Shown: positions 9,303 through 30,585 of the stretch, piece after piece
Layout of the letters: every line of letters begins with the position of its first letter
Position numbering within the stretch: position 1 is the stretch's first letter
IMG/VR virus record: IMGVR_UViG_3300021406_000004
Coordinates: 1-48,408 of that record
Source of the DNA: a virus
Length of the DNA stretch: 48,408 nt
Direction: 5' to 3' (one strand)
Notes under the pieces: model-generated
Told to the model about the DNA's origin: nothing
The model's input: the letters and a program-made list of their open reading frames with translations, nothing else
The model's database searches: none
Position numbers and translations under genes: made by a program

Positions 9303-12000
9303 TCTCCTGCTTCTGGCAGCTGCCTCGGCATGGGGCCAGAAGATCGATCCTGACCAGCTGAACATTTCTTTCACGGTGCTGCCCATCGGCGCTCCGCTGA
9401 CGACGGCCGCGCTGGCTGCGGCATGCAACGGGACGACTCCGGGAATGATGGCGCTACCTGCGGGAACTGTCTCATCGGCTGCGCTGGTTACGGTTCCGTC
9501 GAACTGCCAGATTGTCGGTGTGGGCAAAGAGCAGACCATTCTCGGCGTGTCGAACGCTTCGCCCATCGCAGCCGCGCTCGACATCAACGGGGGAACCAAT
9601 ATTGGGTTTTCCGGTTTCACGATCCTGTGCGCCTCTTCGCCCGCTACCTGCACTACGGCAGTGAGAATCCGTTTCTCGACCAACATCACACTCAAGGACA
9701 TGGTGATCTCGGGCGGAGGCTACGGCGCAGGCTCGAATCCGCTGGCGCAGGTCTATACCGAGAACGTCGACAACCTGCTGGCCGACAATGTGCACCTGAT
9801 CAACGCTGGTGGCAAATACGACTGGGTAAACGGCTACAACGGTACAGCCTCGACGCGCCTCCACCTGCACAACGTGGTCGAGGAGAACAACGCCGCCATT
9901 ATCGCTATCTCGCTATTCAACTGTCAGTTCTGCACGGTCGATGGCGGAACGTCGATTAACGAGAATAACCAGACCGACTCGAGCACCGTGGACGGCTACG
10001 GGCTGCTTTTCTATGCCTCGAACGTCACGCCTGCCATCACGACCTGCACGGGTTCGGGGACTGTGATCTGTACCATCGCGCTCTCGGGTGGCGGGACAAC
10101 GCAGATTCCGGTGGGAGCTTCCTTTCGCGTGGCCACCTATGGCATTAGCGGGGGCACGGGGACGCTCAATGGCACCTGGGACGCGACTCTGGCATCCCCG
10201 ACGACCTTTACCATCACCGGGGCCGGGAACACGTCAGGAGCGACCTATGGCGAGGCGTTCGCCTTCTTCCCCACCACCAACAACCTGATCAACGATGTGC
10301 ACATCAAGAATACGGCCGGATCGGGCATCTACCTGCAGGGCTGCGACTACTGCACCGTGACCGGATACGACCTCCAGAATGTCGATCAGCAGATGCTGGG
10401 CTCATCGCTTCCAGCGGGCGGAATCGCCATCGGGGGAGGGAATCCCATCTCGGTGGGCGTCCCGGCGCATGGGGACTCGATCGGACACGGGATCATCAAT
10501 GGCGTGGGGCAGTATTGCCTCGATATTGCCGACACTGTTGATTTCGTCGCCTCCGGGCTCAGTTGCAACAATGCCGCCGTGGCCGGAGTCCGCCTCTTCG
10601 CGGGTTCGTTCAATAACACCAACTTCGAGATTGGCGGGCTGACGATCGACAATGTGCCTACCTGCGTCAAGAGCCAGACATCCTCGGTCAACACGGGATC
10701 CATTTCCGGAACATGCCAGAACTTCTCTGCCAGCGGGCTGCAGCCGTCTAGCGGGGGGATCAGCTTTCGTAACTGGAAGCTCATCGCCTCGTCTTATATC
10801 CCCTGCATCGACGACTTCTTCGACCGCAATGGATGGTTCGACGTATCGTGTTCTGGCGGTTACGACCTGTTCGCCGGCAGCAACACCAAGGTCGCCAATC
10901 TGCGAGTCGCCAGCGTCACGGCGGGAGCCAATCACCATGCGGTTGAATTTGCAGGCGCAACCCATGTGGTGCTGAATGAGCCCATCATCGATACCGCCAA
11001 CGACGGCATCTTCTTCGCCGCGGGCTCGGTGCAAAACAGCGACATTACCATCCTTCATCCGCGAATCGCGAACATCACCAGCCAGCCAGCCATCTGGGAT
11101 CAGGCGCCCGCAACGCTGACCATTACCACCCACACCTCGACCTCGGTGGACATCGCGGCGACAGGAGCCCTGATTACGGCCGGAATGGGCCTCGGAGACT
11201 ATGGGACGGGCGGCAATAACGACATTCCGCCGAGCACAACGATTACGACCAATCCCGGCTCCTGCGCTTCCGGCTGCACGGTGACGATCTCAAGTGCTGC
11301 GACAGGCTCGCATGCTGCGGAGACTGGCCTGCTGCAGAATGTCATGTCCTCGAACGTGCGTATCTGGGATGCCGACATTCAGGGCAATCTAGGCTCCTGC
11401 CCAACGACCTCGCAGGCCATCCTGGCCTTTGGGCTCCAGAGTTCCGAACTGCGGCGCACCTCTGTAGGTTGCTTCGGTGGGCAGGGAATAATCGACGTGC
11501 GCGGCGCCTCCAATGGGGTCACGATCAGCGGTGGGACGCTCACGGGCGGAACTGCAGCCTTGGCTGGTATTTACATGCCCGGAGGACTTCTAGGCAGCGC
11601 CGCCAACGTCACCGTTTCTAATCTCACCATCAACGGGACAGTGACCAATTCCATTTACGACCATGGCGCGGGACTAGGCAATATCTTTAACGATGTCACC
11701 AACTTCCTGAACGGAAACACGGTCAGCGTATCCAACACCAACACCACTATTCAGGGAACGCTTCTCGTTTCATTGACACCCGCAGCCACTGCATCCAGTG
11801 CATGTGTAGAGCAGACTTTTACTGCAATTCTCGGATTGCAGACCGGGCAGGGTGTCAGCGTAACTGCCCCATCAGCCCTGAGCCATGTGGGAATCAGCGG
11901 CGCCAGAGTCTCAGCAGCTAACGCTTTGACGGTCAACTTCTGCGGTGACTTAACGGGCGGGACGGCTCCAGCCGGAAACTACAAGGTGATTGCGCAATGA
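9283..12000 (+). CDS. Exported-type right-handed beta-helix tail spike / depolymerase candidate 1
   Basis: 905 residues with a strong TAGGAG Shine-Dalgarno. Residues 1-19 form a textbook Sec signal peptide: basic MRK, hydrophobic AFISLLLLAAASAW, cleavage predicted after GQ or the preceding Ala. The body (about 60-800) is rich in parallel beta-helix coils with N/G/D turns (DINGGTNIGFSGFTILCA; NVTVSNLTINGTV), as in pectate-lyase-fold spikes. It also carries an inserted FCCH-like module (SGGTGTLNGTWDATLASPTT) and many cysteines, unusual for a cytoplasm-assembled virion protein. The C-terminus is a small beta domain (SHVGISGARVSAANALTVNF). Glycan degradation is plausible, but I cannot assign catalytic residues. 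Confidence 0.8.
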   Translation: MRKAFISLLLLAAASAWGQKIDPDQLNISFTVLPIGAPLTTAALAAACNGTTPGMMALPAGTVSSAALVTVPSNCQIVGVGKEQTILGVSNASPIAAALDINGGTNIGFSGFTILCASSPATCTTAVRIRFSTNITLKDMVISGGGYGAGSNPLAQVYTENVDNLLADNVHLINAGGKYDWVNGYNGTASTRLHLHNVVEENNAAIIAISLFNCQFCTVDGGTSINENNQTDSSTVDGYGLLFYASNVTPAITTCTGSGTVICTIALSGGGTTQIPVGASFRVATYGISGGTGTLNGTWDATLASPTTFTITGAGNTSGATYGEAFAFFPTTNNLINDVHIKNTAGSGIYLQGCDYCTVTGYDLQNVDQQMLGSSLPAGGIAIGGGNPISVGVPAHGDSIGHGIINGVGQYCLDIADTVDFVASGLSCNNAAVAGVRLFAGSFNNTNFEIGGLTIDNVPTCVKSQTSSVNTGSISGTCQNFSASGLQPSSGGISFRNWKLIASSYIPCIDDFFDRNGWFDVSCSGGYDLFAGSNTKVANLRVASVTAGANHHAVEFAGATHVVLNEPIIDTANDGIFFAAGSVQNSDITILHPRIANITSQPAIWDQAPATLTITTHTSTSVDIAATGALITAGMGLGDYGTGGNNDIPPSTTITTNPGSCASGCTVTISSAATGSHAAETGLLQNVMSSNVRIWDADIQGNLGSCPTTSQAILAFGLQSSELRRTSVGCFGGQGIIDVRGASNGVTISGGTLTGGTAALAGIYMPGGLLGSAANVTVSNLTINGTVTNSIYDHGAGLGNIFNDVTNFLNGNTVSVSNTNTTIQGTLLVSLTPAATASSACVEQTFTAILGLQTGQGVSVTAPSALSHVGISGARVSAANALTVNFCGDLTGGTAPAGNYKVIAQ

Positions 12001-15000
12001 AAAAACTTCTATGTTGTCTCCTGCTTGCCGCTCCACTGTTCGGGCAAGCGCCAAAGCCGAGCGTACAAACCTATGTGGCCGGACGTTTCGTTGCCTACAA
12101 CTACAGCCTCTGGAGGGTGCAGATTTACTCGCTCTCTGCTGCCACAGGGTCGGTGACGATGGTACTGAGCAATGGTTCGGTGACGCTTCCGGATGGCAGG
12201 GTCATCGTTCCCTTCGCCACCACGGCTCCGCTCAAGATCGGTACCGAGACGGCCACGCCCTCGGCGATATCGAACTGCTTTATAAACAATCCTCCCAACA
12301 CCTGCACCGTCACCGTAACCCTTTCAGGGTCGCACACCATCTCTGAGACAGTCGCCTCGGGCACCTACGGCCTGCAGGAGGGCTTGAATGACGCCGGAGC
12401 AGTTCCGGGCGGCACCGTAACGCTCGATGGCTCATGGGCAGCGGTAGGGGGCACCACCGCGATGGTTAATGCGGCGACCGTTCCCAGCAACGTGAAGATT
12501 GAGGATTGCCGCACGGGGTGCTCCGCCGCTGGCGCTGGCGGAGTCAGCCAGATCGTCGCAGGCACCAATGTGACCATATCGCCATCTGGTGGTACGGGCA
12601 CGGTAACGATAAATTCAACAGCCGGTGGTGGTGGTACCACGGTGTATACCTGCACCGGATCGGGCGATGCCACTGGTCTAAACACAGCTTTGGCCAGCGC
12701 TGGTCACGTTGTTGTCGCGGGAGCCAACTGTGCCGTGACTAGTACACTCACAATTCCTTCTGGAACCTGGCTGGATATTCCTCCCGCCACAACCATTACT
12801 TGCAACCCGAGTACCGCGATTCCTTGCCTTTCCAATACGCAGAACGCTCAGACCATCGCTCGCACCTGCACAGATGTGCAGATGACCGTCAATTCGGTCA
12901 ACATCACCTCGGCGACGTGCAATTTTTCCCAAGCAGATGTGGAAACTGAATCCATCGCGTGCATAGGAGGATACGCCGGGGGACTGGCTTATGGCGCGGT
13001 CGCCATGGGGACCGATCTTCATACCACCTTTGCCAACGTCACCAACTCCACCACGGCGGCACTGGCCGATCCTCCGACTGCGGTTTCCAATCCCATGACC
13101 TGCAATATTTACACCCGAGATCACGATATAAGGGTCACTGGCGGGACGTGGATCATGCAGGGTCCGAACCAGCCCAACAATCCCCCGGTACTGAAATTTA
13201 TTACAGTGAACCGTCTGATCGTAGATGAAGCAATTACGGTAGCGCGGTCACTTACGGTCCCAAGTAATGCCGGCGGGTACAGTGGAATCTATCTCCTCGA
13301 TTCATCCAACGTCCGTATCTTAAATCACACCATTAATAGCTGGTCGCAAGGGGAAGACGGGATTCACATGACAGGTCCGCTGCGCTCCATTTCCCTATCG
13401 CATATCAAGGGTCACAGCGGAGACGACTTTATCGCCATCAGCGCGGCAGACGGAAATTCGGCTAGCAACGGTACCGTGGATGGTCGCGTTTATGGAGTGG
13501 TCTACGGGGTGTCTGTCAGCGACGTGGATGGGAGTTCGTATGCTAATGATGCGGGAGTGAAACTGTTTGGGCCGAGCGGTACGCCTATCCTGATAGGCAA
13601 CGTCACCATCAACCATGTAAATGGAAACAGCCAGACCTGCCCGCTAACGGCCTGCAATTCCAGCGGCAACTTGCCAGGCTTCGGCAATGCCGTCTACCTC
13701 TACTCGGGGCTGATGGACAACATTATCGTCAACGACATTGGCGGAAATATCGTTACCTCGGCCGTTTACGCTGGAGGATCTGGAACCGGAGGCCACGACA
13801 CCCACATCCGGTCGCTGACAGCCAGCAACCTGTGGCAGAACGCCTATACTTATTCTGCAGCCAACCAGACCCACTTTCTGCTCGGGATAGATGCGGGTGC
13901 AGTCGCCGATAACGTCGCAGTGGACGGTTTGAAAAGCGATGCCTACAATCTCGCGCAAGATGTGTTCGTCGCCAACACCAGCACTGTGTCCAGACTAAAG
14001 GTGTCTAACGTCCAATTCGCCAACATGACCGGGGGGGCGTTTGAGCCCTTCGACCTTTTCGGAACATTCGACGACATCATCTTTGAGAATATCCAACTCA
14101 GCTACAATACCGGAACCGGGGCTTCCGCGAGCAGGGGAGTCATATCGCTAGCGGGATCAACCAGCAACCGACTTGCGCTGCACCATTTTCATGTCACCTA
14201 TCAATCAGGGAGCGCTAGTTCCGGTACTGGGCTTGTTACGCTAGCCAACTTTCAGCCGGGAAACCTTCCATCCACGGCGGGCGACATCCTGTTTGACGAT
14301 GTGTCGATGGTGGCATCGGGTTCGGCTTTGAATCAATATCTCCTCTTCGTTGCAGCCAGCCAGACGGTCAATACCTACACGATCCAGAACAGTCAGATGT
14401 ACTACCAGCACGGCTGCATTCTAAACAGTGGAACGATTACCACCGCCGGTAGCATCATCAGCGTGGACACATCCAATCTGACGACTCCCGCCAACTGCGC
14501 GGCAACCATTTTGACGATTCCGGCGAGCGGAAATGGAACCCTTGTCGCCACCACCAACGTTAATTCAGACTCGGCTGGGCAGATCACGTGCTGGGATGGA
14601 AGCCATAATGTGACCAATTCCGGCTGTCCTGTGGTTCCGATAGCGTTAATCTCCGCGGCGCCGACCAGCGATATGCTGTGCGCCGAAGCTGCGGATACTT
14701 CGATTGCCAACGACACCATCACCGGAGCAACGCAGGCCAATCCCGTGGTGTTCACGGTGAGCACTAACCCGCAGACTACGGGGTATCTGGTGGGAGAGAC
14801 CTATGGCGTGCAGAATGTGACGCCCACGGACTATAACGGGACCTACACCATCACGGCGACCAACACCACCACTATCACAGCTACCTGCATCTCAGGATGC
14901 GTCAAGCCTCCCGGATCGGCCTACACAAGTGGCGGAACAACGTACAAGATATGCACCAATCAGTCGAGTGATGCGGTATCGACCTCGAATCAGCCGTTCG

Positions 15001-15671
15001 CTACATCCATCGGCTTACCCGCATTGGCTTCTCCTCCCTATCAGTTCAATGTCGAAGCTGAATACGGGCTATACACTCCCTCTGGGGCAGCGGCCTCTTC
15101 CGGGTATCCGAGTCTGCGCTATGGCGGCAATACGCTGATAGGAAGCACCGGCACAACCACACAGGTTGTCAGTCAGACAAACATTCCGGGAACCACGGGA
15201 TGGGCCTTTATCAACCCCGTGAGTGGGCTGATTTATAGCGGCTACAAATGGAATACCATTTCAGCTTCTGCTTCAGGCGCTTTTTCATCAGCGAAGGCGA
15301 CTGTCTACACGACCACAACAGGCGCTGCCAATCTGACACTGAATTTCGGATTCCTTGCGACGGGGGTGGCAACGGCGACCTACACCAGCGGAGGATCAAT
15401 TACAGGCTCGGCAACCCAGACCTGCACGGCTACCTTTGCGGGCGGTTCGGGAGGTTCATATACCATCGCTCTGACCGGCACCAATACGATTGCCGGCGGC
15501 ACGGCTTTCACTGTAATCACCAGGGATGGTGGACATGCGAGCGCACCCACAACGGCCACACTGGGAAGCGGTACAGCTACCTGCTCTGGAAGCGCTACGG
15601 TGTCATCAACTCTCGGCGGGCAACCTGGAAATGCTCTGGCATTGCGCTGGTTTAGCGCCAAACAGCAGTGA
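11997..15671 (+). CDS. Exported-type beta-helix spike 2, polygalacturonase (GH28)-like core
   Basis: 1224 residues; ATGA overlap with spike 1. Residues 1-17 are a Sec signal peptide (MKKLLCCLLLAAPLFGQ). A beta-helix core around 380-780 contains GEDGIHM and, about 25 residues later, SGDDFIAIS, matching the spacing of the GH28 polygalacturonase active-site segments (N-x-D and G-D-D), so glycoside hydrolysis or lyase activity on host polysaccharide is plausible. The canonical GHG and RIK motifs were not found. After the core come an FCCH-like module (PVVFTVSTNPQTTGYLVGET) and a C-terminal beta-sandwich likely to bind receptor or trimerise. Cys-rich, like spike 1. Confidence 0.8.
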   Translation: MKKLLCCLLLAAPLFGQAPKPSVQTYVAGRFVAYNYSLWRVQIYSLSAATGSVTMVLSNGSVTLPDGRVIVPFATTAPLKIGTETATPSAISNCFINNPPNTCTVTVTLSGSHTISETVASGTYGLQEGLNDAGAVPGGTVTLDGSWAAVGGTTAMVNAATVPSNVKIEDCRTGCSAAGAGGVSQIVAGTNVTISPSGGTGTVTINSTAGGGGTTVYTCTGSGDATGLNTALASAGHVVVAGANCAVTSTLTIPSGTWLDIPPATTITCNPSTAIPCLSNTQNAQTIARTCTDVQMTVNSVNITSATCNFSQADVETESIACIGGYAGGLAYGAVAMGTDLHTTFANVTNSTTAALADPPTAVSNPMTCNIYTRDHDIRVTGGTWIMQGPNQPNNPPVLKFITVNRLIVDEAITVARSLTVPSNAGGYSGIYLLDSSNVRILNHTINSWSQGEDGIHMTGPLRSISLSHIKGHSGDDFIAISAADGNSASNGTVDGRVYGVVYGVSVSDVDGSSYANDAGVKLFGPSGTPILIGNVTINHVNGNSQTCPLTACNSSGNLPGFGNAVYLYSGLMDNIIVNDIGGNIVTSAVYAGGSGTGGHDTHIRSLTASNLWQNAYTYSAANQTHFLLGIDAGAVADNVAVDGLKSDAYNLAQDVFVANTSTVSRLKVSNVQFANMTGGAFEPFDLFGTFDDIIFENIQLSYNTGTGASASRGVISLAGSTSNRLALHHFHVTYQSGSASSGTGLVTLANFQPGNLPSTAGDILFDDVSMVASGSALNQYLLFVAASQTVNTYTIQNSQMYYQHGCILNSGTITTAGSIISVDTSNLTTPANCAATILTIPASGNGTLVATTNVNSDSAGQITCWDGSHNVTNSGCPVVPIALISAAPTSDMLCAEAADTSIANDTITGATQANPVVFTVSTNPQTTGYLVGETYGVQNVTPTDYNGTYTITATNTTTITATCISGCVKPPGSAYTSGGTTYKICTNQSSDAVSTSNQPFATSIGLPALASPPYQFNVEAEYGLYTPSGAAASSGYPSLRYGGNTLIGSTGTTTQVVSQTNIPGTTGWAFINPVSGLIYSGYKWNTISASASGAFSSAKATVYTTTTGAANLTLNFGFLATGVATATYTSGGSITGSATQTCTATFAGGSGGSYTIALTGTNTIAGGTAFTVITRDGGHASAPTTATLGSGTATCSGSATVSSTLGGQPGNALALRWFSAKQQ

Positions 15672-20866: not shown

Positions 20867-21330
20867 GCTGCACGCTCGTCGAGGATCACGGTCAAGAGGC
20901 GTCCGCAGCGCACGATTCCCCCGCGTGAGTCTTGCCCGACAGGGCGCTGACAGGTGCGAAAAGCATCCACGCCCTTCTCCAGAAATCCCGTCTGCTGGCA
21001 CTTGCATGCCGGACACTTCCACACCACCAGCCGCTGATTGTGGGCGACCATCTCCCGGTTGTGGCGGGCGATCCGGACCACCTCGACCATCGCCAGCACC
21101 GCTCCGACCTCAGGAAAGGCCAATTCTCCCTCGTGGCGGGGCATCTCAGCGATCTTTTCGAGCGCCGTAATGACATCCTCGAAGTGCTCTTTAGAAAGGC
21201 GCTTTGCGTACACGGAAAGCGTCGAAGAGTCCACCTTCGCTCCCCTCGCCGTAGCCGTCATGGCTAAGGCTTGCCGCAGCGGACTTTCTGAGGCTGGCAA
21301 CTTCGTCGTCTTCTTCTCGTCGTGCTCCAT
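20863..21330 (-). CDS. Putative helicase-loader-like protein with C-terminal zinc ribbon
   Basis: 155 residues with GGAGG five bases before the ATG. The helical N-terminal domain (about 30-85: STLSVYAKRLSKEHFEDVIT, ALEKIAEMPRHEGELAFPEV) has the Y...L...D/E...A-L...F-P pattern of G39P/loader-type N-domains. The C-terminal part holds CPACKCQQTG and later TCQRPVG...VRCG, a probable zinc ribbon. Next to a DUF1376 replication protein, a role in recruiting host helicase is plausible. Its first 140 bases overlap the DUF1376 gene in another frame, unusually long. Confidence 0.6.
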   Translation of the reverse strand: MEHDEKKTTKLPASESPLRQALAMTATARGAKVDSSTLSVYAKRLSKEHFEDVITALEKIAEMPRHEGELAFPEVGAVLAMVEVVRIARHNREMVAHNQRLVVWKCPACKCQQTGFLEKGVDAFRTCQRPVGQDSRGGIVRCGRLLTVILDERAA

Positions 21331-22288
21331 TTGATCCTCCGTTTGTTTTCTGTTTCAGTTGAAAAACTCCCCGGTAGGCGTTGTTAATGCTCTGCTGCAG
21401 CACCGCATCGGCCGAGTCGCCGGTTTCGCATAGCTTCTCCAAATCCGCGATGATCCCCTTGCGCGCCTTGTCTGTCAAGGGAGCCCTGATCTTTTTCCGC
21501 ATCTCCTCGAAGCCGGACCAAATCTCCGGATCAATCCAAGACGGAACAACAAACGGCAAGGACATAGCCTTCGCAGAAGGCTTTTGCTTTTGTTCTTCAC
21601 AGGGTAACGGTGACGGTGAAGGTGCAGGCGTTAGAGAGCCGTTAGCCAGCGGTTTAGCTAGGCGTTCCGCCAAGCGTTCGCGCCAATCCGTCGGCCTGAA
21701 GTCGGTTGAATCGCCGCCCTTGCCAGCATTACAGTGGCGGCACAAAGGTTGAATGTTTTCAATGCCATCTGATCCACCTTGGTAGATGGGTAGAACATGG
21801 TCCTTCACTAATTCGCCCGTATCTCCACATTTCACGCAAGCGGATCCGCATACCAGAATCAATGTGTGCCACTCCGCTGCCGAATGCCTAGCGAGACGCC
21901 TAGCGTTCGCCAGACGCTCAGCGCGATCTAGTTTGAAGTTCTCGTTTTTCGTTCCCCATTTGCGGATGGCTCCGGTTAGACCATTTTCAACCTTGGATTT
22001 GATCCTTCTCTGCGCCTTTTCCAGTTCGGCGCAAAGCCTACCCTGAATGAGAACGCCGTCCTGCTCGGAGAAAAACCCGGATAGGGTTTTCCACACAGCG
22101 GGCCATCGAGATTCATCCACGCGCGCAATGTTTCGCAATTGATTTTGGTCGGTTGGGATCGAGCCTTTTTTCCAGTGATGCATGAGGAGTAAGAAATATG
22201 CCCCATGCTTTTCCGCGTCGAGATGCCCGGTGTCGGCTAAGTAATCGCCAATATAAACAGGCATCCAAATGCCAGACTTAATGGACAT
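21191..22288 (-). CDS. DUF1376 replication-initiator-type protein with an embedded HNH nuclease domain
   Basis: 365 residues. Start at 22288 (ATG after AGGAAAGGTGTGT) chosen over GTG two codons earlier. Residues 1-95 match DUF1376 (WMPVYIGDYLADTGHLDAEK, HGAYFLLLMHHWK), the winged-helix-like N-domain of phage replication proteins. Residues about 141-195 form an HNH domain: CVKCG, KDHVLPIYQGGSDGIENIQP, LCRHCNAGKG, with zinc-binding cysteine pairs and the catalytic DH. The remaining C-terminal half is helical (DPEIWSGFEEMRKKIRAPLT), as in usual DUF1376 proteins. An HNH inserted in the linker looks like a domesticated homing-type module. A structured leader precedes it. Confidence 0.85.
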   Translation of the reverse strand: MSIKSGIWMPVYIGDYLADTGHLDAEKHGAYFLLLMHHWKKGSIPTDQNQLRNIARVDESRWPAVWKTLSGFFSEQDGVLIQGRLCAELEKAQRRIKSKVENGLTGAIRKWGTKNENFKLDRAERLANARRLARHSAAEWHTLILVCGSACVKCGDTGELVKDHVLPIYQGGSDGIENIQPLCRHCNAGKGGDSTDFRPTDWRERLAERLAKPLANGSLTPAPSPSPLPCEEQKQKPSAKAMSLPFVVPSWIDPEIWSGFEEMRKKIRAPLTDKARKGIIADLEKLCETGDSADAVLQQSINNAYRGVFQLKQKTNGGSNGARREEDDEVASLRKSAAASLSHDGYGEGSEGGLFDAFRVRKAPF

Positions 22289-22290
22289 AC

Positions 22291-22340
22291 ACACCTTTCC
22301 TGAGTAAAGGCGGGAGGGGCGATCTCAGGAATCGCCCCTC
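22291..22340 (-). promoter_or_regulatory. Pseudoknot / kissing-loop leader masking the Shine-Dalgarno of the DUF1376 gene
   Basis: In the leftward mRNA, GAGGGGCGAT and ATCGCCCCTC form a perfect 10-bp stem closing loop TCCTGAG. That loop is fully complementary to CTCAGGA (22304-22298), which overlaps the Shine-Dalgarno AGGAAAGG. The target can itself form CCTTT-ACTCAGG-AAAGG, allowing a loop-loop kiss. Both forms would occlude the ribosome-binding site. A further stem, CGCCGG/CCGGCG (22347-22365), lies upstream in the same leader. Confidence 0.6.
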
Positions 22341-22406
22341 TCACTGCGCCGGGGATCAACCGGCGTTTGCCTATTCATCCATCGCGGGGAGCTAAGGACG
22401 AATACC

Positions 22407-22435
22407 AACATAGTCGCACGTCGCGCCCTAGTCAA
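22407..22435 (-). promoter_or_regulatory. Sigma-70-like promoter for the DUF1376 transcript
   Basis: Minus strand TTGACT, 17-base spacer, TATGTT (5/6 and 4/6 matches). It lies right after the stop of the 22446 gene, leaving a leader of about 110 nt containing the two hairpins described. It would allow the replication block to be expressed apart from the upstream recombination genes. Confidence 0.55.
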
Positions 22436-22999: not shown

Positions 23000-23772
23000 G
23001 CGTTCTCCTTTGGAAATCCTGCCTGGGCCCATGCAATGTCTTCGAGCGTGATCGAGTTCTCCAACTCCTGCTCAAACTTGCTGCTCCGCGGCCTCGCCTT
23101 GGCCTCCCGATCCGGGTACTGGCCTGTCATGCGCTCAACCAGCGCCGTAGCCTCCTGCATGGCCTTGACGCCCGCGTCTTCCATCTGGCGGTGCAGTTCC
23201 GGGTCAGCTTTGAGGCGCTTCACGAACAGGCGGAAGCGCTCGGGAAGTTCCGGGTACACATCAGGCGGGCAATAGCTTACAAAGTCCCACTCAGGCAGTT
23301 CGCAGCACAGCATATTGAACTGCATCTGCGGGATGTAGTCGGCCGGGATCACGTCATCGCGCAGGGTAGCCATGTGGGTGTAGAGCGTGGGGACCTTAAT
23401 TTCAAGGCCATGTCCCTTGCATAGCCCATCCGGCGAGCTACCCATGAAGTCGATGGTGGGATGCAGGACGAAGCCCGTCTCGTCCACCTCATTCCCGGTG
23501 GTCATCCAGTACTCCGTGCGGGCCTCTCCCTCGAACTGCGCCCCGATCTCCATTGGCTTCGAGACGTAGTGCTCGGCGGGGACGCGCGTGATGAGCTCCG
23601 TCGCCAGTTCGAGGATGTACCTGTCGCGGTCAGCGCTGGAGTCTCCAGCCTTCTTTTCGCCCGACGCCCGCTTGAGAAACGACATGGCGCGGTCGATGTT
23701 CGAGGCGGTTACGCACGCGACGCGGGCTTGGAACCATTCGGCGGTGTTCTGAGTTTTGCATGCTATTCTCAT
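22996..23772 (-). CDS. YqaJ / lambda-type recombination exonuclease
   Basis: 258 residues. Start at 23772 has GGAGGAAAAAG upstream. Family landmarks in order: EWFQARVACVTASNI (R and S of motif 1), EIGAQFEGEARTEYW (G-x-x-x-E-x-x-A), MGSSPDGLCKGHGLEIKVP (the S-P-D-G and E-I-K metal-binding residues), and YIPQMQFNMLCC (Gln ladder). This is the 5'-3' double-strand exonuclease that pairs with single-strand annealing proteins. The ERF gene two positions upstream is its natural partner. Length is normal for phage enzymes. Confidence 0.9.
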   Translation of the reverse strand: MRIACKTQNTAEWFQARVACVTASNIDRAMSFLKRASGEKKAGDSSADRDRYILELATELITRVPAEHYVSKPMEIGAQFEGEARTEYWMTTGNEVDETGFVLHPTIDFMGSSPDGLCKGHGLEIKVPTLYTHMATLRDDVIPADYIPQMQFNMLCCELPEWDFVSYCPPDVYPELPERFRLFVKRLKADPELHRQMEDAGVKAMQEATALVERMTGQYPDREAKARPRSSKFEQELENSITLEDIAWAQAGFPKENA

Positions 23773-24473
23773 GCTTCTTTTTCCTCCGACCCGGTAAGAG
23801 TTTCTAGGCGCTCCAGCCACCCCTCTAGAGTCGCCGTGAAGTCATTGAATTCGTAAGTCTTTTCCTCCTCCCCCTTCAGGGAGGCAGTAAGGTCAGCTAG
23901 AAGCAAAGTGTCTATACCGAGAAGTTGTTTCCGTAGGTCGGCATACGTCCTGATCTTGAGGTTGTTCAAACACAATCCAAGCTTTATGGCCTCTATGCCA
24001 GAAAAACGGTAGCCCCTCTGAATGAATTTCCGCGTCCTAAATAAGGAGCAAAGGGGGTATTCAGCGTTGATGTTGTACACGAGACGCCGCTGCGCGAGAT
24101 GCTGAAAGAAATCCGGGGAGAATAGGAAGTCCGATCCGTTGAATGCCGCTTGGCATATCGTGAAGTCAAACGAACCAATTACCGACGATGGGTCTCCTGT
24201 CTTAACGCGCGTAAGCTGGACCCTGTGCTTGTCAGAGACGAATGAGATAGCGGCATCCGTGGACGCTGTGCGGTCCTTTTGAGAAATGGTCTCTATCGCA
24301 GCATCCGCCGCTTCTGCCGTGGGGAAAAACAAGTCAAGGTCATTGATTCTCTCAGAAGAAAAAACGCTCGTTACGGCACCTCCAGCTATAAATGCCCCAT
24401 GATTGTCCATAAGACCCTTAACGGTCGGACTAATGTGGTCGCGGAGAATAGAGAGCTCGCGACTATATGTCAT
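23769..24473 (-). CDS. Nucleotidyltransferase-like protein (Pol-beta superfamily head)
   Basis: 234 residues; start at 24473 with GGAGACTTGC upstream and ATGA overlap with the ERF gene. FIAGGAVTSVFSSERINDLD, LFF follows the G-G-[A/C]...D-x-D pattern of the nucleotidyltransferase palm, like the poly(A) polymerase/CCA-enzyme head. A third acidic strand may be GSFDFTICQ. The C-terminal half is helical. Codons are AT-richer than the neighbouring ERF and exonuclease genes, suggesting later insertion between two genes that usually sit together. Substrate unknown; RNA or toxin-antitoxin-type nucleotidylation are options. Confidence 0.7.
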   Translation of the reverse strand: MTYSRELSILRDHISPTVKGLMDNHGAFIAGGAVTSVFSSERINDLDLFFPTAEAADAAIETISQKDRTASTDAAISFVSDKHRVQLTRVKTGDPSSVIGSFDFTICQAAFNGSDFLFSPDFFQHLAQRRLVYNINAEYPLCSLFRTRKFIQRGYRFSGIEAIKLGLCLNNLKIRTYADLRKQLLGIDTLLLADLTASLKGEEEKTYEFNDFTATLEGWLERLETLTGSEEKEA

Positions 24474-29738: not shown

Positions 29739-29983
29739 CGCCAGTACCCCACAGCCACCGCAATCAGGCTCACCACGCCCACGCACAGGCCCACCAGCGC
29801 GAGGATGAACTGCGCATCGGAGTACACGCTAGGCTCGCTCTGAGCGATGCGCGTGAACTGATCCTCATTCTCCAGAGAGTAGAATAGCGAGTCAGGGCAG
29901 GGCAGATCGCGGTGGAACTCCTCCGGCAGCTTGTCCCCGAGGCGATAAGTGGCGGTATTTACTGCGCGTTCAGTATCAATCAT
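29735..29983 (-). CDS. Tail-anchored membrane protein
   Basis: 82 residues. A soluble polar N-domain ([40 protein letters not shown]) is followed by one C-terminal membrane span (FILALVGLCVGVVSLIAVAV) ending GYWR. ATGA overlaps at both ends. Adjacent to another membrane micro-protein, so the two may act together at the inner membrane. Confidence 0.6.
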   Translation of the reverse strand: MIDTERAVNTATYRLGDKLPEEFHRDLPCPDSLFYSLENEDQFTRIAQSEPSVYSDAQFILALVGLCVGVVSLIAVAVGYWR

Positions 29984-30585
29984 TTTTTCACCTTTTTCAT
30001 TTCAAATGCGGAGATGCACATTTCGTTAAACCATCCACGGTATTTTAATTGCGCTGCGGCCCACGCTGCGGCCTGCACTGCGTCCCACGCTGCGTCCCGC
30101 GCTGCGGCCTGCGCTGCGTCCCGCGCTGCGGCCCACGCTGCGGCCCACGCTGCGTCCCGCGCTGCGGCCCACGCTGCGGCCCACGCTGCGGCCCGCTTAG
30201 ATTCATCTCCGGTTTCGAGAAATTCCCTGACAATGGGTGGTGCATTCCATAAATGAATCACATCTAGCGCAACGCGGCGGGCAAACAAACGCATGATGTC
30301 GGTTGCGTCGATAGACGCGATGATTTTGCGCTTCTGACCGGCGAACTTATCCACCGGCTTACCATGGGGAACTATTGTTCCGCCAAGGTGAACCTGATGA
30401 AGCTTTGATCCCGGCGCATACTTCAGGGCATCAAACGGGTCGGGGGAGGCGTGCAGGCCACATTGGCAAGGGACTGGAGCACCATCAAATACCAGCCAAG
30501 TGCGCTTCTTGGGAATGGGATCGCCATTGCGCAGCCTGTCACCGGTGAAGTGGTAATAAACGGTCGGTTGATCTTTCTTAAGCAT
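29980..30585 (-). CDS. Protein with Ala/Trp/Arg/Asp dodecamer-repeat C-terminus; first gene of the leftward operon
   Basis: 201 residues. The N-terminal domain (about 1-130) is globular: [80 protein letters not shown]. This matches a recurrent phage family of unknown function in which the same domain is followed by repeats. Here the repeats are [18 protein letters not shown]-type units from about 132-180, predicted to form a long helix with Trp stripes. The start codon sits 6 bases after the -10 box, so the transcript would be leaderless; no Shine-Dalgarno is present. Confidence 0.7.
30053..30200. repeat. 12-bp tandem minisatellite coding Ala-rich repeats
   Basis: About twelve imperfect copies of a GCTGCGGCCCAC-type 12-mer (variants GCTGCGTCCCGC, GCTGCGTCCCAC) inside the leftward gene. 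Each encodes a four-residue unit of the A-A-W/R-x kind. Being a multiple of three, copy-number changes would lengthen the helix without breaking the frame. Confidence 0.85.

Follow-up and report, generated by a model that had tools for sequence, protein, structure and literature searches.

A covarying leader RNA with loop–ribosome-binding-site complementarity, a candidate translational control of phage replication-initiation operons

The leader preceding a DUF1376 gene in a 48,408-base IMG/VR virus record (the whole of which was analyzed and is called the window here) is very probably a genuine, so far undescribed switch that turns the start of phage DNA replication on or off, judging from its comparison with related leaders. 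Six others (at L010, L012, L057, L188, L200 and L277) keep 6–8 bp of pairing between the loop of a hairpin, P3, and a target at the Shine-Dalgarno sequence (SD), with both sides of the pairing changing between leaders. The seven together make five loop-target classes; they are few, and two pairs share a class (L200 with L010, and L188 with L277). We read the element, with moderate confidence, as a cis-acting leader of the replication-initiation operon that would control translation, the loop-target pairing closing the ribosome-binding site (RBS) until it is opened.

In the window the first gene after the leader encodes a product with an N-terminal DUF1376 domain, an internal HNH domain (aa 152–192) and an O-like C-terminus, and upstream of it in operon order lie recombination genes of the Erf-like and YqaJ-like kinds. 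A gap of 157 nt ahead of the DUF1376 gene contains three hairpins and a TTGACT-17-TATGTT site, from which the leader is presumably transcribed (Table 1). An earlier note on this DNA, made from the letters of the window, had placed the element at 22291–22435, which does span promoter to SD, but the ATG itself lies at 22288, a small correction. Some other open reading frames of the window also drew attention. The product of 23772–24473 (-), between the YqaJ-like and Erf-like genes, resembles several functionally uncharacterized phage families and has a weak likeness to nucleotidyltransferases (phrog_1614). The ORF at 29980–30585 (-) encodes a long A/W/R/D repeat, and a comparable repeat ORF occurs at L187 610–1119. 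A 1224-aa ORF at 11997–15671 (+) has a signal-peptide-like start (MKKLLCCLLLAAPLFGQ) and is possibly a tail or spike protein; a likeness of this start to Acidobacteriota secreted proteins is a mere impression.

Table 1. Features of the leader and its first gene in the window
Feature	Position (strand)	Description
Sigma-70-like promoter (putative)	22407..22435 (-)	TTGACT (22435-22430), 17 nt, TATGTT (22412-22407)
P1, 5'-terminal hairpin	22375..22401 (-)	TCGTCC..GGATGA, inner GC-TCCCC-GC
P2	22347..22365 (-)	CGCCGG-TTGATCC-CCGGCG, 7-nt loop
P3 (stem S1)	22314..22340 (-)	perfect 10-bp stem GAGGGGCGAT (22340-22331)/ATCGCCCCTC (22323-22314); covaries in 7 leaders
P3 loop	22330-22324 (-)	TCCTGAG, closed by the 10-bp stem
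Linker	22305..22313 (-)	CCGCCTTTA, 9 nt, separates P3 from target
Target (pairing S2)	22298..22304 (-)	CTCAGGA, complement of the entire P3 loop; inside TACTCAGGAAAGGTGTGTATG
P4, alternative small hairpin	22294..22310 (-)	CCTTT-ACTCAGG-AAAGG; covariation support weaker
Shine-Dalgarno	22301-22294 (-)	AGGAAAGG; ATG start at 22288-22286
DUF1376 gene, first after leader	21191..22288 (-)	primosomal/initiation-like protein, ATG 22288-22286

The earlier note had described a perfect 10-bp stem with a 7-nt loop fully complementary to an SD-containing sequence, and this was confirmed at 22340–22298, all seven loop bases being complementary to the target (eight counting the flanking T/A). Its further observation that the target can form a stem of its own also held, with CCTTT (22310–22306) and AAAGG (22298–22294) closing ACTCAGG; in the window this hairpin, P4, pairs the SD purines and displays the target in its loop, a kissing geometry. 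Besides P3, the 48-kb window has just one other perfect stem of at least 8 bp with a loop of 4–9 nt. The full layout, a stem of at least 9 bp whose loop has a complement of at least 7 nt with a start codon 5–12 nt further on, occurs once, at the gene start, against an expectation of 0.0025 per window from 400 dinucleotide shuffles of the window. The folding energy of the leader is only modestly unusual (z = -2.5), because plain folding energy leaves the loop-target pairing uncounted.

Near relatives were scarce: viral contigs scanned for the exact stem-loop pattern gave zero matches, the 111-aa upstream protein and YqaJ brought up no relatives, and searches with neighboring proteins yielded little. 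The Erf-like protein did lead to related phages, including L010, where a matching layout built from different bases precedes the DUF1376 gene: CGGGGGAG-TCCTCAAG-CTCCCCCG, followed by CTTGAGG at the SD. Wider searches and a descriptor scan added three more leaders, with P3/target sequences GGGGAGG-CCCTCT-CCTCCCC / AGAGGG (L012), GGGTGGGT-TTCTCAG-ACCCACCC / CTGAGA (L057, also seen in L185–L187) and CGGGGAATG-TCCTCAAG-CGTTCCCCG / CTTGAGGA (L200); the loose pseudoknot descriptor alone has a high background, at 14 matches vs. 4.5 expected in 1.15 Mb. We trained a covariance model, R1, on the window, L200, L057 and L010, with P1–P3 paired and the loop-target pairing omitted, building it from N-padded sequences; first MAFFT alignments had put the stems wrongly. 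R1 recovered the held-out L012 (E = 0.005), found a new leader at L188 (E = 2e-7) and, applied to whole genomes from the order of an Acidobacteriaceae MAG, found L277 (E = 1.5e-6), whose contig carries a portal-like gene and which is the sole Acidobacteriota genome match in about 1,180 genome draws. The loop-target complement, absent from the model, was present in all three of these finds, as AGAGGG in L012 and as CTTAGA against TCTAAG in both L188 and L277.

Weaker matches of the model (L266, L267, L278 and L281–L289) were rejected, the loop-target pairing being missing or no gene lying behind, as was L013 1406, where complementarity is present but belongs to a terminator with a U-tract. No leader was found at the equivalent place in the ERF-bearing relatives L009, L011, L013 and L022, nor at the cultured-phage DUF1376 genes (L014–L021), the latter because those genes mostly abut or overlap the upstream gene.

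In the covariance-model alignment of the seven leaders, which was structure-fitted and hence leans toward the structure, 95% of the cells in P1–P3 are paired, with double changes at 20 of the 24 pairs; none of 500 shuffles was as good, and slid registers pair at 39–54%. For loop versus target 50 of 52 cells are paired and seven pairs have double changes, in a register set by hand. Both S2 and P4 were hand-aligned in the pairing register, which favors both, and the covariation of P4 came out weak to modest. Only four of 5040 loop-target permutations equaled the native sum, all of them swaps within one loop class, and the best match of each loop was its own target. The loop complement extends past the generic anti-SD bases into positions that vary between leaders, so the pairing is not that of any C-rich loop meeting any SD. 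Global pairwise leader identities are inflated by gap placement and were left unused. As to the earlier note, it had called for covariation analysis on homologous leaders and named loss of the complementarity in relatives as what would count against it. The stems and the loop-target pairing both covary in the alignment of seven, and the six other leaders bear compensatory changes, so that its proposal, a structured leader in which loop and SD pair, has strong support. At the level of sequence, then, comparison establishes the architecture of the leader, the covariation of its stems and that of loop with target.

The seven leaders share an anatomy. A -10-like box, weak in L188 and L277, stands about 4–8 nt before P1 in all of them, at a near-constant distance. 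P1 in most leaders has an apical GC-[GU]C[CU]C[AC]-GC, the P1 of L277 being short and poorly aligned. The 7-nt P2 loop is TTGATCC in the window, CTGATCA in L200, L188 and L277, and CTCGCTA, GTCGCTC or GTAGCTC in the others; CUGAUCA contains the self-complementary UGAUCA, which could permit loop-loop dimerization of two transcripts. AGTG often precedes P3. The linker from P3 to the target measures 7–10 nt in the relatives and is pyrimidine-rich, with GCCTCA or CCTTTA often at its end; next come the target, located at the SD, and the start codon. P4, in which linker pyrimidines pair with SD purines, is possible in six of the seven leaders (weak in L188, with hardly any in L010). Four leaders (the window, L057, L188 and L277) have the target within the loop of P4, which makes a kissing loop no less natural a fold than a pseudoknot. 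In the other three, L010, L012 and L200, the SD itself is the partner of the P3 loop, and in L200 P4 and S2 are mutually exclusive.

From this anatomy we would propose the following sequence of events. P3 would form during transcription, and its loop would capture the target once the SD region emerges, either alone, as an H-type pseudoknot, or together with P4, as a kissing pair; as a classical H-type knot the fold leaves little steric room, since S2 would have its full 7 bp on a 10-bp S1 and no L1 nucleotide. The RBS would thus be held closed and translation of the initiator kept low until a factor at P1/P2, or some other route, opened it and initiator synthesis started. The loop-target pairing presumably forms in the cell, and its effect is fairly probably repression rather than activation. 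Repression is preferred because either S2 or P4 could engage the SD core in every leader, and also because S2 itself covers GAGG in three of them. The trigger would be a trans-acting factor, either a protein or an RNA, that these phages have in common and whose site of action may be the conserved loops of P1 and P2.

The same pairing could act in the opposite direction, as in ColIb-P9 repZ, if it melted an SD-hiding P4 and exposed the purine stretch by the target, an antisense RNA or other factor then blocking the loop. Such activation would suit the control of a replication initiator, as in repZ, the P4 that nearly all leaders can form from linker pyrimidines and SD purines, and the SD-like stretch (AAGG, GAGGA), usable as such, that directly follows the target on its 3' side in the window, L188 and L277. 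However, in L010, L012 and L200 the loop pairs with the GAGG of the SD, which the pairing would hide; P4 covaries weakly; the target of the window and L277 sits in the P4 loop, so that P4 could survive the pairing; and a consensus scan found no antisense-strand promoter-like site near the window leader. We regard activation as rather unlikely. Much less probable still is a DNA operator, with the two opposed TTCCTGAG copies as half-sites of a dimeric repressor and the RNA fold incidental: complementary half-sites would co-vary in DNA too, and the window has somewhat more copies of TTCCTGAG than expected (5 vs. 1.6), but each upstream half-site is placed precisely within the loop of a long stem that covaries and has some G-U pairs, P1 and P2 are conserved as well, and the whole element is transcribed, running from downstream of the -10 box to the SD. 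The single loose-descriptor matches at many other loci are the background that a functionless chance hairpin would belong to, yet the layout, so rarely expected in the window, recurs with covariation in seven phages, each time before a gene of the same kind. An intrinsic terminator would call for a U-tract, whereas CCCGCCTTTACTC follows the P3 stem in the window, and P3 was not listed by the scan that gave the TTGACT-17-TATGTT site. The chance or terminator reading thus appears largely refuted by the sequence comparison and scarcely credible.

The genes behind the leader bear on a further alternative, an autogenous operator at which the DUF1376 protein would bind the leader and repress its own synthesis, like T4 gp32. 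The gene directly after the leader is indeed DUF1376 in the window, L010, L057 and L200, and T4 gp32 shows by precedent that a phage replication protein can have a pseudoknot operator (PMC535899). Against this, the leader is followed by a free-standing HNH gene in L188 (then DUF1376) and in L012 (then a replication initiation protein), and in L277 by a DnaD-like/replication initiation protein without DUF1376. (That DnaD-like gene, L279 4209–4538, encodes 109 aa, about one-third of the family length, and may be interrupted.) Very few of about 236 DUF1376 loci carry the leader, none was seen at the close DUF1376 genes L190, L194, L196, L197 and L201, and the stem and loop sequences of P3 are unconserved. 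Autoregulation by the DUF1376 product, which the earlier note had also suggested, is accordingly disfavored both by the genes that the same RNA precedes and by the many close DUF1376 genes without it; we consider it unlikely, and an operator of the gp32 kind improbable. The first genes are all HNH or replication-initiation genes within the replication operon, and what the leader accompanies is the promoter and first gene of the replication-initiation operon rather than the DUF1376 family. The other part of that suggestion, control over a replication-initiation gene, is supported, and the leader always opens such an operon. Variation of the first gene by family argues against simple autoregulation and for a common trans-acting signal or a purely structural brake.

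We tentatively put forward, as possible rather than probable, that a modular leader cassette of about 110 nt in Acidobacteriota phages heads replication-initiation operons whatever the initiator family, its P1/P2 loops binding a common trans-acting signal that would open the loop-locked RBS and so time DNA replication. An RNA that is kept while the initiator family changes points to a shared phage-replication regulator, which is directly searchable. The leader is a covariation-supported regulatory RNA outside Rfam, placed where it is able to set the onset of phage replication, in phages whose hosts, going by one genome match, belong to a soil phylum that has been little studied, and it illustrates that the reading of a single sequence can lead to a testable RNA family.

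Rfam gave no match at gathering over the window, and none up to E = 2 over L001, L200 and L188; we found no report of this leader in the open-licence literature. In passages from a survey of 104 bacterial RNA motifs the Acidobacteria motifs Acido-1 and Acido-Lenti-1 are marked as not cis-regulatory (PMC2864571). The leader is probably best filed as a new RNA family among translation-controlling leaders with loop-RBS pairing, and the general mark of such pseudoknot or kissing leaders, an RBS-complementary loop kept by compensatory change, was found in all seven. Translational H-type pseudoknot riboswitches (SAM-II, preQ1) form a pseudoknot at the SD, as the present leader may; unlike them it has P1 and P2 in addition, has no Rfam match and does not conserve the sequence of P3, whereas a ligand pocket would require conservation. 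In ColIb-P9 repZ the loop of a leader hairpin pairs beside the SD of the replication-initiator gene, and a small hairpin sequesters the SD. Here too a leader loop pairs near the SD of an initiator gene and a small SD-sequestering hairpin is possible; but the partner of the loop is often the SD itself, the setting is phage rather than plasmid, no shared sequence is known, and neither a conserved leader peptide (ATG and GTG are both missing from the L010 leader, and that of the window has only ATG-GAT-GAA-TAG) nor, in a consensus scan near the window leader, an antisense promoter-like site was seen. The leader pseudoknot of the IncI-alpha/IncB/IncL-M plasmid rep genes (ColIb-P9 repZ) is referenced in passages of PMC10724649. 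At T4 gene 32 a pseudoknot of about 28 nt is separated from the downstream RBS by unstructured UUAAA repeats and serves as a nucleation site for the protein (PMC535899). An autogenous operator of the T4/RB69 gene 32 type would be tied to a single autoregulating protein family, whereas the pairing here reaches the SD and the proteins downstream vary (DUF1376, HNH and DnaD-like); what the two would have in common is a leader pseudoknot at a phage replication gene, tied to translational control.
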